DNA of 64,000 bases from Aquificaceae bacterium (GCA_037481935.1 JBBFKQ010000001.1:204741-268740); one strand, 5' to 3'; numbered from the stretch's first letter, positions 17,964 to 24,844 are shown. A program made the numbers and translations. The notes: generated by a model from the letters alone, not told the origin.

Positions 17964-18308
17964 GGGGGCGAATGGGTTCGACGGGAACTGTAGGACAGGG
18001 TTGCAGGCAGGGTGGCAACCTCAACAGCCAAACCAAACACTTCCCGAAAGGGAACTTGCACTCGCTGCCTAACTGAGGCAGTGGCCCTCCCATAGCTTGA
18101 CCCCTGGGCAATGGGAAGGGCTCAGAGACAGGGGCGTAGGCTCGGGATGGTGCAGGGCTTACCCCGGGCTGAAATCAAGACCCTGCTCGCCCAATGGGAG
18201 TCTGCCAGTGGACGCCCATGGGTCAGAGGCAAAACACTGGATAAGCCTGTAGAGGCTCTGGTTTCTGAAGGTTCTCGGACGCGGGTTCGATTCCCGCCGC
18301 CTCCACCA
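17964..18308 (+). ncRNA. ssrA: tmRNA (transfer-messenger RNA)
   Basis: 345 nt. The tRNA-like ends are clear: 5' GGGGGCG (17964-17970) pairs with CGCCTCC, the 3' end has GGTTCGATTCCCGCC and an encoded CCA. The tag frame ends in CTT CCC GAA AGG GAA CTT GCA CTC GCT GCC TAA (18040-18072), giving LPERELALAA. The alignment with Aquifex tmRNA (tag APEAELALAA) places the resume codon at CTT, unusual because nearly all tags begin with Ala or another small residue. It rescues stalled ribosomes with SmpB, which is not in the window. The 5' half of the mRNA-like part is GC-rich, as expected for a thermophile. Confidence 0.95.
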
Positions 18309-18312
18309 AAAA

Positions 18313-18639
18313 CTAACTTGCCTTTGCCCCTTCTCTCACATCCCTGTCGGGAACTATAAGAGATAGCCTTTCACCGTCGGACAGAGCAAGCACCATTCCT
18401 TGAGACTCCACACCAAAAATCTTACGGGGTTTGAGATTGGCCAGCATGAGGATTTTCTTGCCTACAAGCTCCTCCGGGCTGTAATGCTTTGCTATGCCCG
18501 CCATAAGTGTTCTCTCTTCATCTCCGAGGGAAACCCGAAGTCTCAAGAGCTTTTCTGAGCCTTCTACCTTTTCTGCGGAAAGCACCCTTGCAAGCCTTAT
18601 GTCCAGTTTAAGAAAGTCCTCTATACTCACAAGTTCCAT
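18313..18639 (-). CDS. tRNA-binding protein, Trbp111/MetG C-terminal type
   Basis: 108 residues, one EMAP-II/OB-fold domain: begins SIEDFLKLDIRLARVLSAEKVEGSEKLL-like, then VGKKILMLANLKPRKIFGVESQGM. It is the free-standing dimer (Trbp111) first found in Aquifex, which binds the outside corner of tRNA and acts in trans to tRNA synthetases. Convergent with the tmRNA, 4 bases apart. Two bases upstream lies the end of the PIWI-like gene on the same strand, so it may be in the same transcript by proximity only. Confidence 0.85.
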   Translation of the reverse strand: MELVSIEDFLKLDIRLARVLSAEKVEGSEKLLRLRVSLGDEERTLMAGIAKHYSPEELVGKKILMLANLKPRKIFGVESQGMVLALSDGERLSLIVPDRDVREGAKAS

Positions 18640-18641
18640 GC

Positions 18642-20957
18642 CTATACAATTTTATCATCTCCGGGCAGGTGTTTTATAAACTCAAGCATTTCATACAGCA
18701 ATGGGCTCAGAGCAAAGGTGTATATCCTTCGGCTGTGTAGATGGTCTTCTCTGTCTATTCTCAGGTATGTGTTTCTCTCCTTTGACCAGAGGTTCAGCTT
18801 TGCGTAGGCCACATGGGCTGCCTCACTTTCAAACATGGAAAGGGCTATCAGAGTGAAGAGGAAGAGGTTTTTACGCTCCGAGTATACTTCTTCCCTGTCC
18901 CAGCCTATCTTTTCTGTAAAGAAGAGCTGGAAGGCAGGGTGGTAAAAGTCCTCTTCTCTCTGAGGTCTTGAAGGCTTTATGCCTATTACAGCTGCGTCCT
19001 CTTCCATGTGAATTCCGAGCCCCTCTATCAGTTTTCTGAATTGCTGTGTGTATATTACAAGACATCCCTCCTCTTCCTTCTTTGACAGATAGGCGGTTTT
19101 GAGCTCCTTGTATCTCAGGCTGAGCAGTTTTCCCTGATAGTCTGCGTGGCTGGCAAGCCTGTCGTATAGCCCTTTCAGATAGGAGTCCTTCAGAGAGCTT
19201 ATAAAGCAAAACCTCACCTCTTTTTCCTCAAGCCCTTCTCTGACAAACCTCTCCAGCTCCTGAGCATCCTCGTTGTATCCACCTCCCATAAGGAGAAACT
19301 TGTTTTCTACCTCCACCGTGGCCGATTTGCCCTCCACCCGCACCCTGTAAACTTCATAGAGACCGTGCCTGATACCAGATTCCTTCTCTCCCTGTGCGTA
19401 GAAAAAGGCAGAAGAAGGCTTTTCCAGCACTGCGTATATGGTTACTCTCTCCGGAAGGCTAAAGCCGTCAAAGTCAAACTTCAGCACTTTAGCATCCTTA
19501 TACAGGCTTATGAGCAGGTTTTTCTTGGCTGTTTCTTTCTGGTTATTATTGCGCAGTTTGTTCAGGGTCCTTCTTGTTACGGTCTGAACCGGGAGCCCGA
19601 AGTAGTCGTATAAAAAGCTGACTGCGTTCCAGAATTCATACATCTCTCCCTCTTCCAGCTCTGTGTTCAGCAGTATCAGCACTCCCCTGAAGCTCTCGTG
19701 GTCTTTCTCTATCTGTCTCTGAAGGCTGATAAGCCTTGCACAGAAGTGGAGAAGAGAGTAGAGCAGTTTTGTTGATTCTATATGTCTCAGGGGTCTGCCC
19801 TTCTGGGCTGTGCCCTTTATCAGGGAAATAAAGTCTTGACCGCCAAAGAGCCTCTCAAGGGAATACTTGCCCACTATACTCACACTCACCCCCTGAGCAA
19901 AACTGAAGGTCTTCAGCTCCCTTTCCAGAAGGTCTATGTCCTCCTGACTTATCTCCGCCTCGTGGAAAAGATACAGTTCTATATTCTTATTCGGGACGAG
20001 ATACTCACCAAAACTCACCCATACCTTTGATGGGGTATCTTCCTTTATGAGCACCTGTGCAGACAGCTTACTGCTCTCACCCATCAGTGCCTTCTTGAGA
20101 AAGAGTTTCCAGTCCTGCTGAAGGGCTTTGAGGGTATCGGGACTGAGTGCCCTCTCCAGCAAGCTCTTAGTATCCTCAAGGCTTTTGCCCAGATCCTGCA
20201 TGTATTCAGAGAGGTCTTCGTAGAGCTTTTCATCCTTGAGTTTCTCTTCTATTTCCTGCCAAAGCCCAAGGCGGGTTTCCTCTCTTCTTTCAAAAAGGCT
20301 CGCCCTTGATACTATCTTGGAATTTCCAAGGTGGTCAAAGTAGAGGGGCAGAAGGTAGAAAAAGAGCCTTCTAAAAGAATACACGTCCCAGGGTTGTAGG
20401 TAGAACCCTTCTATCTGGCCTATGGTATCCATCACCTCCTGAAGGTATTGCCTTACAATATCTGAACCGCTGAGCTCCAGCCACACCTGCAAAAGGTCTT
20501 TTCTCATCTGCCATTCTACTTCTCTGCTGAGCTCCACATCCTCATAACCCCTTATCCTCATAAAGACCACCCCACTCTTTCTATCAAGGTCTGAAGGATT
20601 GCCAACCCTGAGGTCTTCCACCAGAAACCTCCTGCCCTCGCTGTGCCTGTAAAAGCTCTTTCTGTCTTTCCCATACTTTACGAGCCTGAAGGGCTTTCTC
20701 CAGCGGTTTACCACCGACCTGCTGTAGATGGCTCTGCCGGGCACTCTGTAGTCCGCCTTTTCAAGGGCGGAGTTGAAGCCATCATAGTTAACCTTTCTGT
20801 TTATCAGTCCGTGCATGAGGTTTGCAAGGTTTTGAAGATAGGGCTCGTGGCGGTTGTAAAAAAGCCCTGCACAGATAAAGCTCTCACCCCCAACGGGCTC
20901 TGCCTTTGCAAAGCGGTCAAACCTCTCTTCCCACCCTCTGGCTATAAACTCCTGCAT
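18642..20957 (-). CDS. Argonaute/PIWI-like protein, predicted catalytically inactive
   Basis: 771 residues from the ATG at 20957, which has a strong GGAGGGG ribosome site; longer frames upstream only read into the helicase gene. No database match is claimed. The C-terminal half follows the MID-PIWI plan: GVLILLNTELEEG (425-437), GLPVQTVTRRTLNK (454-467), KNLLISLYKDAKVLKF (479-494), then a strand VTIYAVLEKP (505-514) and YEVYRVRVEGKSATVE. Q458, N480 and K487 sit where Argonautes bind the 5' end of the guide. The first PIWI catalytic Asp, expected in the strand at 505-511, is missing (IYAVLE), so slicing is unlikely. The first 400 residues show no recognised domain. It overlaps the nuclease-helicase gene by 41 bases. 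A PIWI-RE family member or an inactive long Argonaute are the main options. Confidence 0.5.
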   Translation of the reverse strand: MQEFIARGWEERFDRFAKAEPVGGESFICAGLFYNRHEPYLQNLANLMHGLINRKVNYDGFNSALEKADYRVPGRAIYSRSVVNRWRKPFRLVKYGKDRKSFYRHSEGRRFLVEDLRVGNPSDLDRKSGVVFMRIRGYEDVELSREVEWQMRKDLLQVWLELSGSDIVRQYLQEVMDTIGQIEGFYLQPWDVYSFRRLFFYLLPLYFDHLGNSKIVSRASLFERREETRLGLWQEIEEKLKDEKLYEDLSEYMQDLGKSLEDTKSLLERALSPDTLKALQQDWKLFLKKALMGESSKLSAQVLIKEDTPSKVWVSFGEYLVPNKNIELYLFHEAEISQEDIDLLERELKTFSFAQGVSVSIVGKYSLERLFGGQDFISLIKGTAQKGRPLRHIESTKLLYSLLHFCARLISLQRQIEKDHESFRGVLILLNTELEEGEMYEFWNAVSFLYDYFGLPVQTVTRRTLNKLRNNNQKETAKKNLLISLYKDAKVLKFDFDGFSLPERVTIYAVLEKPSSAFFYAQGEKESGIRHGLYEVYRVRVEGKSATVEVENKFLLMGGGYNEDAQELERFVREGLEEKEVRFCFISSLKDSYLKGLYDRLASHADYQGKLLSLRYKELKTAYLSKKEEEGCLVIYTQQFRKLIEGLGIHMEEDAAVIGIKPSRPQREEDFYHPAFQLFFTEKIGWDREEVYSERKNLFLFTLIALSMFESEAAHVAYAKLNLWSKERNTYLRIDREDHLHSRRIYTFALSPLLYEMLEFIKHLPGDDKIV

Positions 20958-23900
20958 CTTTCCCCTCCAGAAGTTTATGCAAAAATTCCACCGGAAACCT
21001 TGCAAACCTCCCAGTGAGGACCTCCACGTAGGGGTAGTCCTCTCCGAGGGGTATGACTGCGTATTCATCTGGTGAGCTGTCGCTCACAAGACATCGGGTC
21101 TTCAGGTCAAGCCCACCCCCCAGCACAAGGGCACCACCCCTCCCAACCCTTTTGCCTACCCTGAAGCTCAGAGCGCTTTCCACTCCCCTTTTCAGCACGT
21201 GTCTTACAAAGACTAGGGCGTAAACTGGCAGAAGAAAAGTGGTGGCGTATTTTCTGAGACTGTCTGTGTTCTCCACAAAGTCTCTGACCCTTTCTGACTT
21301 CTCCTCGTCATGCCCCCTGAGAATGCCCTCAATTTCTTTTAGCATAGCCAGAAGAGCTCTTCTCTTTTCGTTGTCAAACTTTACGCTGACCTGCCCCTCC
21401 ACAAGCAGGTAAGGATGGTAGTATCGGTATCTGCCACTTTCTGGGTCTTCTGGCACATCGTTGGTGGAAAAGTAAACCGCAGAGGACAGAAGGTGCATAA
21501 AGTTAAGAATTTTCCACGCTCCCTCTGGGTTCCTTTTGTTCTCCATCAGGTATACATCCTCAAGGAAGGTTTTTATGCTTTCCAGCTCGGAAACCCTGTT
21601 TGCCCTGTAGTGGCTTCTGTGCTGGGCTGGCACGGGTATAAGCACCTCTCCCTCCGGTGCCTTTACAAACTGCTCCACTATCTTGCCCACCACCTGGTCA
21701 AGGATGAGCCGCTGGTTTATCTGCTCTCTTCTGTAAATTAGCTGGATGAGCTCTCTGTCCCTGAAGTCCACAAGTGACTCTATGTGGTCAATTACATAAT
21801 CCTTTTCCTTGGGTATAACATACAGTAGGTGCAGGTGCTTGGGTCTTTTTTCTGTTTCCTCATCACCCCTTGCCCTTGATATTGCCTGAAGTATCTCCAC
21901 AAGGTTCTGCTCTATGCCCCAGTCTGTCACCAGTATGTATATGTGGTTTACGGGCTTGTGGGGTCTGCTAAAGTCCAATCCTCTTGAAACGGAGGAAGTG
22001 CCCAGTATAACGTCCTGAGAGCCCTCATTTATGTCCCTTGGGCTCTTTTTTGAGCTGGCTGTGGCGATGAGGGTGGTGAGCCCCTCCTTTTCAAGGTGGT
22101 GCGACAGCTCCACTATCTGTCCTTTGTCCTGCAAAAACAGAAAGCCCGTGCTGTTTCTGTCAAGGGTTGCCTTCAGGTATTTCACCACCTGCTTTATAAG
22201 CTCCTCCTCCTTCTCTACCCAGAGGAAGAACCTCCTGTGCAGTATGAGCTCCCCTGCCGGATAGCCATGCTTTGCGTGTATCTCCAGAGGAATGCCGTTT
22301 ATATCCAGATAGAGGCTTTCCTCAAAAGGAGATAGCACAATGGAATCTGGAATGACCTCGTGCTCTCTGAACTCCTCCAGCAGTCTTTTCAAAAGGTGCG
22401 GGGAGTAACCGTTGGCATCAAAAAGGTAAAGGTTTGCCCTTCCGCCCGCCCTATTTACCTTCTGCAAGAACTCAAGCATCCCACTTATGGCATACAGGCC
22501 GTTTCTGTAGCCAAAGAACTCATCAAGTATCACGTGTATGTGCCATCTTTTCAGAAAGACGGGGTTGAGGATCTTGGGGTCAATAAGATGCCTGATGGTT
22601 TCCCCCGTATCCGTGTCCGTGTTTGCCTGCTGGGTAACAAAGGCCCATATCTGGTTGTAAAGACCTTTTTGTCTGTATTCTGCTATCTTCTCCACCGTCC
22701 TTTTTATTATGCCCTCGCTTGATTGCGTGTCTTCAAAGCTGTCGCCTGAGTGTCTGAGGAGTTTTTGTCCGCTGGGCTTTCTCCTCTCCCTTATGATTCC
22801 AATATCCTCTCTGCCAGAGGCTTTTACCTTTTCCATTTCCTTGTCTATGAGTCTGAGCCTGCTTGCCATGTATATGACAAGGTGCTTGCCCTCCGCCCTG
22901 AGGAGATAGTCTCTTATGGTGGAGGTCTTTCCACTGCCAGCAGAGTGAAGCAGGCATATGGCTTTGCAGGGCTCCTCCCTCCTGATAAACTCCGGGAGCT
23001 TCTGCCCTACATCCTGCCTGCAGAGGTTTATGGAGTCTGGCTTTATTGACCTTACCCACCTCTGTCTTGCCTCAACTTCTCGCTCCAGCTCCTCTATTTG
23101 AAGCCTCAGCTTCTTCAGAACCCTTTCCCTCTTTCCGACCACCTTCTCAAAGCTGTCATCCAGCATGTCATACGGGCATTCTTTATCCTTGAGGCTTCTG
23201 TATATTTCTCTTACACTGTCTCTGAAAGGCTCAAGTTCATATGCAGTCTCCTTTTCTACATAAAACCTCACTCTGAGAGGCTCAGAGGCCGGATATATGA
23301 GCTCAAGCACCACCTCCCTGAGGTTCTGTGGCTTTTTCTCTATCAGGTAATCGGTCGCATAACACAGAAGCTGGGCAAAGCCCTTTACTTCCACAAACAC
23401 ACATCTTAGCTCCTCAAGAGCCCTCCTCTGCTCGGTAAAGGCCCTCAAAAACTCCACAAAGTTCAGCTCGCCTACCGACAGGTTTACGGGCACTCCGTAG
23501 TTTATAACCGGTATGCGTGGCAACTGATTTTCATCCTTTGACCTGCCTGTTTCAAAGACCCTCTTTATCCAGAATACAAAACCTGCCAGCTTGAAGTCCA
23601 CTACATAGAAGGTTTTTTCTTTTATAAAGAGCAGGTCTGCATTCTGCCAGACTATATCTCCCGATTCCTCCCCCATGTGATACTTCTCCAGCAGGGCTCC
23701 CTCCTTATCCATGCCGTAGAGCCTGCCGGCATAGTATCCATGCAGATACGCAAGCTTTGCGTATTTTTCCTCTGCCACGTGCTCGTCTATGTATGTTCCC
23801 AGCCTCTCCCACTCCTGAAGGGGCTTTTCAAGCTCAGAAACCAGCTCCTCCCTGAGGGATTCTCTGAGTTTCTCAAAGAGGCTCTTCCTGAACCCCTCAG

Positions 23901-23985
23901 CCCGCTCTGGGGCTATCTTCTGTAGAAGCCCCAGCTTGAAAGCTCCCTCAAAAACAAAACCTAAACCGCTTAAAAACTCCCTCAT
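20917..23985 (-). CDS. RecB-like nuclease fused to superfamily 2-type helicase
   Basis: 1022 residues. N-terminal PD-(D/E)XK nuclease of the RecB kind: Asp117 in NADLLF, Asp130-x-Lys132 in VVDFKL, and a later Q205-x3-Y209 motif (AQLLCYA). After a coiled-coil segment (about 280-312) comes a helicase: Walker A HSAGSGKTST (347-356), motif II LDEF (487-490), motif V LGTSSVSRGLDF (661-672) and motif VI LQAISRARG (699-707). The C-terminal 300 residues are unassigned. An ATP-driven nuclease on DNA is the obvious reading. It stands between moeB (43 bases upstream) and the PIWI-like gene (41-base overlap), the arrangement expected for a partner of a defence PIWI protein. GGAG directly abuts the ATG, an unusual spacing. 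Confidence 0.75.
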   Translation of the reverse strand: MREFLSGLGFVFEGAFKLGLLQKIAPERAEGFRKSLFEKLRESLREELVSELEKPLQEWERLGTYIDEHVAEEKYAKLAYLHGYYAGRLYGMDKEGALLEKYHMGEESGDIVWQNADLLFIKEKTFYVVDFKLAGFVFWIKRVFETGRSKDENQLPRIPVINYGVPVNLSVGELNFVEFLRAFTEQRRALEELRCVFVEVKGFAQLLCYATDYLIEKKPQNLREVVLELIYPASEPLRVRFYVEKETAYELEPFRDSVREIYRSLKDKECPYDMLDDSFEKVVGKRERVLKKLRLQIEELEREVEARQRWVRSIKPDSINLCRQDVGQKLPEFIRREEPCKAICLLHSAGSGKTSTIRDYLLRAEGKHLVIYMASRLRLIDKEMEKVKASGREDIGIIRERRKPSGQKLLRHSGDSFEDTQSSEGIIKRTVEKIAEYRQKGLYNQIWAFVTQQANTDTDTGETIRHLIDPKILNPVFLKRWHIHVILDEFFGYRNGLYAISGMLEFLQKVNRAGGRANLYLFDANGYSPHLLKRLLEEFREHEVIPDSIVLSPFEESLYLDINGIPLEIHAKHGYPAGELILHRRFFLWVEKEEELIKQVVKYLKATLDRNSTGFLFLQDKGQIVELSHHLEKEGLTTLIATASSKKSPRDINEGSQDVILGTSSVSRGLDFSRPHKPVNHIYILVTDWGIEQNLVEILQAISRARGDEETEKRPKHLHLLYVIPKEKDYVIDHIESLVDFRDRELIQLIYRREQINQRLILDQVVGKIVEQFVKAPEGEVLIPVPAQHRSHYRANRVSELESIKTFLEDVYLMENKRNPEGAWKILNFMHLLSSAVYFSTNDVPEDPESGRYRYYHPYLLVEGQVSVKFDNEKRRALLAMLKEIEGILRGHDEEKSERVRDFVENTDSLRKYATTFLLPVYALVFVRHVLKRGVESALSFRVGKRVGRGGALVLGGGLDLKTRCLVSDSSPDEYAVIPLGEDYPYVEVLTGRFARFPVEFLHKLLEGKDAGVYSQRVGREV

Positions 23986-24028: not shown

Positions 24029-24844
24029 CTAAAACCTCGCCTCGCAGACCTGCTCGTATTCTATGAGGTCGGTTATCTTTGGCTCTTTGCCACAGAGGGG
24101 ACAGTGCGGGTCCTTGCGGAGCTTTACCTTTCTGAAATCCATAGAAAGCGCATCCATTATAAGGAGCTTTCCCACCAGAGGCTCGCCAATACCCAGCAGA
24201 ACCTTTATGGCTTCAGTCGCCTGAATACAGCCCATTATGCCACCTATGGAGCCAAGAATTCCTGCCTCCTGACAGGAAGGAACAAGACCTGGGGGTGGGG
24301 GCTCTGGATAGAGGCATCTGTAGCAGGGGGAACTGTCCTTATCTCTGTAGTCAAAGACGGAAATCTGTCCCTCAAACCTCAGCATTGCCGCAGAGACAAG
24401 GGGCTTGCCAAGAAAGTAGCAGGCGTCGTTTATGAGAAACCTTGTGGGGAAGTTGTCTGTGCCATCCAGAACTATATCATAGTCCTTTATTATGTCCATT
24501 ATGTTGGACTTGTTGAGCATGGTGTTGTAGGTTATCACCTTTACATCGGGGTTTAGCTTTTCCACCGTCATGCGTGCAGACTCCACTTTTGGCACTCCAA
24601 CCCTTTCTGTGCTGTGAAGTATCTGTCTCTGGAGGTTGGAAAAGTCCACCACATCAAAGTCCACTATGCCTATGGTGCCCACACCCGCAGCAGCAAGGTA
24701 ATATATGGAAGGGGAGCCAAGTCCGCCAGCACCCACCACAAGCACCTTTGAATTCAGGAGCTTTTCCTGCCCTTTGCCACCCACTTCTGGCAGGATTATA
24801 TGCCTTGCATACCTCTTTATCTGCTCCTCTGTAAACTGAAACAT
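24029..24844 (-). CDS. moeB: MoeB/ThiF-family adenylyltransferase
   Basis: 271 residues. Activates the C-terminus of a ubiquitin-like sulfur carrier (MoaD or ThiS) by adenylation. Rossmann nucleotide loop GAGGLGSP (38-45), the conserved FDVVDFSNLQRQ, the DGTDNFPTR loop and two zinc CxxC pairs (CYRC and CPLC). No rhodanese domain is attached. A TATAAT ends 8 bases before the ATG and there is no ribosome site. It heads the moeB-helicase-PIWI strand run, but I see no functional link. Confidence 0.9.
   Translation of the reverse strand: MFQFTEEQIKRYARHIILPEVGGKGQEKLLNSKVLVVGAGGLGSPSIYYLAAAGVGTIGIVDFDVVDFSNLQRQILHSTERVGVPKVESARMTVEKLNPDVKVITYNTMLNKSNIMDIIKDYDIVLDGTDNFPTRFLINDACYFLGKPLVSAAMLRFEGQISVFDYRDKDSSPCYRCLYPEPPPPGLVPSCQEAGILGSIGGIMGCIQATEAIKVLLGIGEPLVGKLLIMDALSMDFRKVKLRKDPHCPLCGKEPKITDLIEYEQVCEARF

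Follow-up and report, generated by a model that had tools for sequence, protein, structure and literature searches.

What would a bacterium gain from a nuclease-helicase whose gene overlaps that of a protein predicted to fold like an Argonaute? This question is raised by two genes in a 64,000-nucleotide stretch of a heat-loving Aquificaceae bacterium (GCA_037481935.1 JBBFKQ010000001.1:204741-268740), hereafter called the window, i.e., the whole stretch of DNA that was analysed. We propose, with a probability of roughly 0.62, that the pair is a mobile defence cassette in which an inactive, divergent Argonaute would sense invading DNA and recruit or activate its nuclease-helicase partner. An earlier reading of the same DNA, made from the sequence alone (the sequence-only reading), had also placed a defence unit here, and its gene limits were reproduced: two open reading frames (ORFs) are open on the minus strand, with the nuclease-helicase gene first, and their overlap at 20917-20957 is exactly 41 bases. 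An alternative start for the second ORF lies 37 codons upstream (21068); homologues begin at the 20957 start. The ORFs and their motifs are far beyond chance, with 12-16 intact homologues per protein, full-length alignment and invariant motifs. The parts of the pair are as follows.

20917..23985, minus strand: gene 1, nuclease-helicase, 1022 residues (ORF; 15 aligned sequences; AlphaFold2 model with a predicted local distance difference test score (pLDDT) of 80).
23176..23985, minus strand: N-terminal RecB-type PD-(D/E)XK nuclease domain of gene 1, about residues 1-270 (assigned by motifs; limits approximate).
21766..23058, minus strand: superfamily 2 (SF2) helicase core of gene 1, about residues 310-740 (Helicase_C/ResIII matches, Foldseek).
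20917..21765, minus strand: C-terminal region of gene 1, about residues 741-1022, with invariant Y855, H857, P858 and R949 (alignment).
18642..20957, minus strand: gene 2, Argonaute-like protein, 771 residues (ORF; 12-13 aligned sequences; AlphaFold2 model, PDB fold matches).
19788..20957, minus strand: N-terminal half of gene 2, about residues 1-390, largely helical (secondary structure taken from the model).
19458..19700, minus strand: MID-like region of gene 2, about residues 420-500 (invariance, order of secondary-structure elements, fold match).
18645..19457, minus strand: PIWI/RNase H-like region of gene 2, about residues 501-771 (conserved columns; element order).

The first protein was recognised by its motifs. 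Homologues of the 1022-residue protein (15 aligned sequences) are 26-53% identical, and a RecB-type nuclease signature is found at residues 117-209 (D117, D130-x-K132, Q205xxxY209), of which D117, K132, Q205 and Y209 are invariant in 16 sequences and D130 likewise, except for Glu in the Bacteroidia copy. A Pfam scan of the N-terminal nuclease domain gave no match, so the nuclease assignment rests on these motifs. The SF2 motifs at residues 350-707 are invariant (I, GSGKT, 350-354; II, DE, 488-489; V, SRG, 667-669; VI, QAISRARG, 700-707). All 15 members have a weak match to Pfam Helicase_C, and nine have a weak match to ResIII; the top Foldseek matches of the AlphaFold2 model are SF2 helicases of the RecQ/Ski2 type (E ~1e-9). 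The protein is an SF2 helicase with motifs I, II, V and VI and two RecA-like domains; the RecB-like nuclease fused to a helicase that had been read from the sequence is thus confirmed, both motif sets being present and conserved. No iron-sulphur (Fe-S) cysteine cluster is conserved in the helicase, where only C965 reaches 14 of 16 sequences, and it is therefore not DinG-like. Scans of the protein against Pfam, NCBIfam, PADLOC and PDB sequences returned only generic helicase signals. Weak matches in Bacteroidia (E 4e-4 to 1e-3) were discarded because they cover the generic helicase C domain only.

The second protein is not recognised by any of the Pfam, NCBIfam, PADLOC or PDB sequence models: there was no Pfam Piwi match, no domain was recognised by Pfam in the N-terminal half, and no PAZ domain was recognised in the protein. 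An AlphaFold2 model built from 12 homologues (pLDDT 82; predicted template modelling score (pTM) 0.84) was compared by Foldseek with the PDB, and all 35 matches at E<=0.001 were Argonaute or PIWI chains. The best was the long prokaryotic Argonaute (pAgo) of Aquifex aeolicus, AaAgo (E 9.7e-10), and Lactobacillus casei DdmE was the 37th fold match (E 0.024, probability 0.41). Structure prediction, which had been named as a check on the sequence-only reading, therefore returned the MID-PIWI fold. In profile-profile comparisons, the C-terminal half of the protein gave no signal to canonical pAgos, and the whole family showed no similarity to real PIWI-RE profiles (p 0.87); a control comparison of canonical pAgos with PIWI-RE gave p 0.016, with the MID motif aligned. 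Because the fold matches at E<=0.001 are all Argonaute or PIWI while the profile comparisons are null, the protein has the predicted fold of an Argonaute, with a sequence diverged past recognition. Were the match an artefact of the model and the protein an unrelated fold, the lack of any sequence-level signal to an Argonaute and the low template modelling scores (TM-scores) of 0.24-0.33 in the PDB fold matches, normalised to the full query, would be accounted for. We find this hardly credible, however, since the first 35 matches are all Argonaute chains, from many proteins and down to E 1e-9, with noise otherwise, the model confidence is good, and a MID-like motif is conserved. A BFVD fold search gave no meaningful match, and weak single matches to AvrM-A, CorA, KIF21A and PDC-M09B were judged to be chance, as they came from one member or fell below the cut-off.

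Is this Argonaute-like protein likely to cut? Residues were mapped to MID and DEDX positions by the order of secondary-structure elements. At the PIWI-like positions so placed, Glu (E512) is invariant at the first Asp, residue 591 is Asp, Glu or Ser at the second acid, and Lys (K720) is invariant at the last Asp/His, on account of which the PIWI active site has probably been lost, while the nuclease motifs of the partner are intact. R736 and E756 are also invariant, and are at most candidate counterparts of the invariant Arg and Glu in the PIWI-RE sheet extension. A MID-like stretch, GLPVQT...KNLLISLYKDAK, is conserved, with P456, Q458, T459, K479 and N480 invariant; Y440 and W443 are likewise invariant in this region, and residue 487 is Lys, or Arg in one sequence. 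The MID-PIWI plan seen in the sequence-only reading is hence upheld by the predicted fold and by this stretch; its "GGG turn" is not conserved and was dropped as a feature for that reason.

How regularly do the two genes occur together? Relatives of the 771-residue protein were found in 19 of 136 Aquificota genomes, belonging to 6 of 30 genera, the related records being named Aquificaceae, Thermocrinis, Hydrogenobacter and Sulfurihydrogenibium. When one genome was scanned for each species, additional pairs turned up in Candidatus Caldipriscus (WOR-3) and in a Bacteroidia genome. At every intact locus with enough contig, a homologue of the 1022-residue protein is encoded immediately upstream in the same orientation, separated by a short gap or overlapping slightly; a neighbourhood search across Aquificota, another of the checks proposed beforehand, thus found intact pairs always side by side. 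The exception is a remnant in genome G040, which has no adjoining nuclease-helicase. The trees of both proteins have well-supported groups in common, with the WOR-3 copy inside the Aquificota set in both, and the two genes therefore travel together. A contig search with the single 771-residue protein sequence as query found nothing. Pfam Piwi matches (L050-L063) were seen in 15 Aquificota genomes, nearly all of which lack this pair, G048 alone having both; one of these matches, L059, looks by eye more like a TnpB-type transposon protein than like an Argonaute.

The sites of the pair were then compared among genomes. In the window genome (G000), where the 771-residue gene is a single copy in 1.69 Mb, the pair stands between a ThiF-family gene and a tRNA_bind gene, as it does in G036 and G037; it also adjoins ThiF in G038 and G041. 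The flanking genes in the window are the following.

24029..24844, minus strand: upstream flank, ThiF-family gene, outside the system (Pfam ThiF).
18313..18639, minus strand: downstream flank, tRNA_bind-domain gene, outside the system (Pfam tRNA_bind).

Six congeners (G043, G046, G039, G048, G040 and G047) have ThiF and tRNA_bind next to each other, about 10 bases or less apart, and the site is empty; G039 and G048 carry the pair at other sites, and G040 has only the PIWI remnant elsewhere. Inspection of the empty-site junctions revealed no tRNA insertion site and no obvious flanking direct repeat. Between the window genome and G036 or G037, the flanks are 90-96% identical and the pair only 46-50%; for G036 versus G037, identity is 87% in the pair and 98-99% in the flanks, with a ratio of nonsynonymous to synonymous substitution (dN/dS) of 0.11-0.15 versus 0.01-0.03. 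In the comparison of G036 with G038, the proportion of synonymous differences (pS) is 0.09 for the helicase and 0.27 for the neighbouring ThiF gene, which is a sign of recent exchange. Decayed copies are represented by the G040 remnant, disrupted reading frames in G054 and the WOR-3 PIWI gene, and helicase fragments in G514 and G515; some of the breaks could be draft-assembly errors. In the G040 remnant (L033:8437-9324), the N-terminal 150 and C-terminal 110 residues of the PIWI protein are fused in frame, and in G514 and G515 (L078 and L079), which also belong to the WOR-3 phylum, the nuclease-helicase is represented only by N-terminal fragments with internal stops. The G+C content of the pair (0.49) does match that of its neighbours, as had been stated from base use. 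The conclusion drawn from it, that the genes are not a recent arrival, fails, because six congeners have an empty site at this position and the pair moves from genome to genome.

Several copies have defence genes beside them. In G026, type III-A csm1 and RAMP genes directly follow the pair; in G039, the genes before it encode an AriA/NsnB-like ATPase and a type IIG enzyme; and in G040, a DrmD-like PLD helicase follows the PIWI remnant. Taken with divergence faster than that of the flanks, the other sites, the cross-phylum copies and the decay, these occasional CRISPR and restriction neighbours make the pair look like a mobile, swappable defence cassette, and from this behaviour a defence role, as the sequence-only reading had supposed, was judged likely. 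In G026 (L030:6521-11337), 8 bases separate the Argonaute-like gene from csm1, which begins after it on the same strand, and a common transcript for the two systems is therefore possible. As to the site in the window, a transfer-messenger RNA (tmRNA) gene, detected by ARAGORN and Rfam, lies at 17964-18308 on the plus strand, past the tRNA_bind gene, on the opposite strand and about 330 bases from the cassette. In other bacteria, tmRNA genes are common insertion sites. A ParB_N/GmrSD_N-like gene, absent from the window, stands between tRNA_bind and tmRNA in G037 (L023:11663-12442) and G036 (L024:11639-12418); besides the cassette, this position has a second variable gene.

Which known system does the pair resemble? 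In both DdmDE and ApsAB, an Argonaute-like protein is combined with a helicase-nuclease fusion, and both systems act against plasmids (PMC12409362, PMC11096173); the fusion, earlier taken for a new arrangement, accordingly has precedents. DdmDE of Vibrio cholerae and L. casei likewise consists of two genes, for an inactive Argonaute fold and for a fusion of SF2 helicase and PD-(D/E)XK nuclease; here, the nuclease is assigned by motif and the inactivity is inferred. In DdmD the helicase is N-terminal and the nuclease C-terminal (PMC12409362), whereas the order here is reversed, with the nuclease at residues 117-209 and the helicase at 350-707. ApsAB of Escherichia coli ST38, which is anti-plasmid, also comprises a helicase-nuclease and an Argonaute-like protein with a MID-like pocket. 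ApsA, compared by description only, differs in its C-terminal nuclease and in its helicase motifs, GFGKS/DELH/QAVGRVER (PMC11096173). ApsB has the MID motif Y-x3-K...Q...K (PMC11096173); here the Lys is absent, the position four residues after Y440 being Asn, Asp or Pro, W443 is invariant, and Q458 and K479/K487 are kept. As judged from motif positions, what is new here relative to DdmDE and ApsAB is the N-terminal place of the nuclease. Among the papers searched, none was found to describe this gene pair, which looks like an undescribed relative of DdmDE and ApsAB in design, not in sequence.

PIWI-RE systems, next to which the sequence-only reading had placed the pair, are three-gene operons of a restriction endonuclease (REase), a DinG-type Fe-S helicase and a PIWI-RE protein (PMC3702460). 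On such a model, the PIWI protein would sense DNA-RNA hybrids (R-loops) of the invader, and the helicase and nuclease would restrict it; the ingredients are the same as in the triads, namely, a PIWI-like protein, an SF2 helicase and a REase-fold nuclease (PMC3702460), and an inactive PIWI is compatible with an R-loop target. We nevertheless regard this as distinctly improbable. PF13032 (RNaseH_pPIWI_RE) was unmatched in the 771-residue protein and across the 136 Aquificota genomes, and the model works, as it gave one Bacteroidota match. The PIWI-RE profiles showed no similarity where the canonical-Argonaute control did, the helicase lacks the DinG cysteine cluster, and every intact locus has two genes with a fused nuclease-helicase, rather than three, and no separate REase gene. 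The placement is consequently not supported. The Bacteroidota PIWI-RE protein (L076/L077) is followed by a large helicase-like ORF, which is not the usual triad order.

Other systems share parts of the design. Canonical Aquificota pAgos keep D502/E541/D571 and Y439/K443/Q454/K480 and have no sequence similarity to the 771-residue protein. Short pAgos of the SPARDA and SPARTA systems, with fold matches from E 2e-9, likewise join an inactive MID-PIWI to a separate effector. In those systems the effector is a toxin other than a helicase and is linked to APAZ; here, by contrast, the partner is a helicase-nuclease, and APAZ was not detected. HsdR and type III Res subunits unite a REase-fold nuclease and an SF2 motor in one chain, as the 1022-residue protein does, and the HsdR nuclease is also N-terminal. 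Unlike in those enzymes, no methylase or specificity subunit stands beside the pair within the window, and the ResIII match is weak. A survey of pAgo operons reports associated helicases and PD-(D/E)XK nucleases (PMC6299218).

How, then, might the cassette work? The analysis shows that the genes are paired, that the model has an Argonaute fold, that the nuclease and helicase motifs of the partner are intact and that the pair behaves as a cassette in genomes; by the inferred alignment, the PIWI active site is not conserved. Guide binding, complex formation, the order of events and the kind of invader are inferred. The 771-residue protein, as a catalytically inactive Argonaute, would recognise invading DNA, its MID pocket most likely holding a guide strand, and would then recruit or activate the nuclease-helicase. 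The latter would load on the exposed strand and translocate by its SF2 motor, and its N-terminal RecB-type PD-(D/E)XK nuclease would cut, removing plasmid or phage DNA. The analogy with DdmDE and ApsAB makes plasmids the first candidate invader.

A number of observations speak against this proposal. A single predicted fold carries the Argonaute claim, since there is no profile similarity to canonical Argonautes (hhalign of the family against 12 canonical Aquificota pAgos gave p 0.32, no signal) or to the PDB chains of DdmD and DdmE, which are absent from the profile matches at E<=10. When aligned on the Gln, the pAgo Y439 and K443 positions correspond to Trp443 and Ser/Asn/Arg447, so the canonical Tyr...Lys pair that holds the 5'-phosphate in MID appears to be replaced, and guide binding is uncertain for this reason. 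No copy was found in the plasmid and viral collections searched, the genomes are few and mostly drafts, and most loci lie among housekeeping genes, not defence islands. The replaced Tyr/Lys pair would suit an Argonaute fold that has lost guide binding and reads DNA structure (ends, forks or flaps) of replicating invaders before activating the nuclease-helicase, as would the finding that no guide-making gene was recognised beside the pair at the loci examined. This guide-free sensing is unlikely: Gln458 and Lys 479/487 are invariant or nearly so, which suggests that the phosphate pocket is kept, and DdmE, a divergent Argonaute that works with a helicase-nuclease, is guided (PMC12409362). The housekeeping surroundings, together with purifying selection on the copies (dN/dS 0.11-0.18), could instead indicate host DNA maintenance, i.e., repair or chromosome segregation. 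Such a role is very improbable in view of the minority of genomes that have the pair, the clean empty sites, the varied sites within one genus, the cross-phylum copies, the decay and a divergence far above that of the flanks. We retain the mobile defence cassette as the preferred explanation.

Beyond this, it is possible, at somewhat less than even odds, that the cassette represents a third class of immunity built on an Argonaute plus a helicase-nuclease, assembled independently and found in thermophilic bacteria, with an Argonaute unrecognisable by sequence, a nuclease before the motor and a non-canonical Trp/Gln/Lys MID set that would imply an unusual guide end or guide-free recognition. At one defined chromosomal site, some strains have the cassette and others lack it, and the two kinds of strain form a natural comparison. 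If the proposal is true, the pairing of an inactive Argonaute with a helicase-nuclease would have arisen more than once or diverged beyond recognition, and Argonaute censuses relying on Piwi sequence models would miss such proteins. The pair would also constitute a heat-stable, two-protein and possibly programmable DNA-degrading machine that would be useful as a tool.

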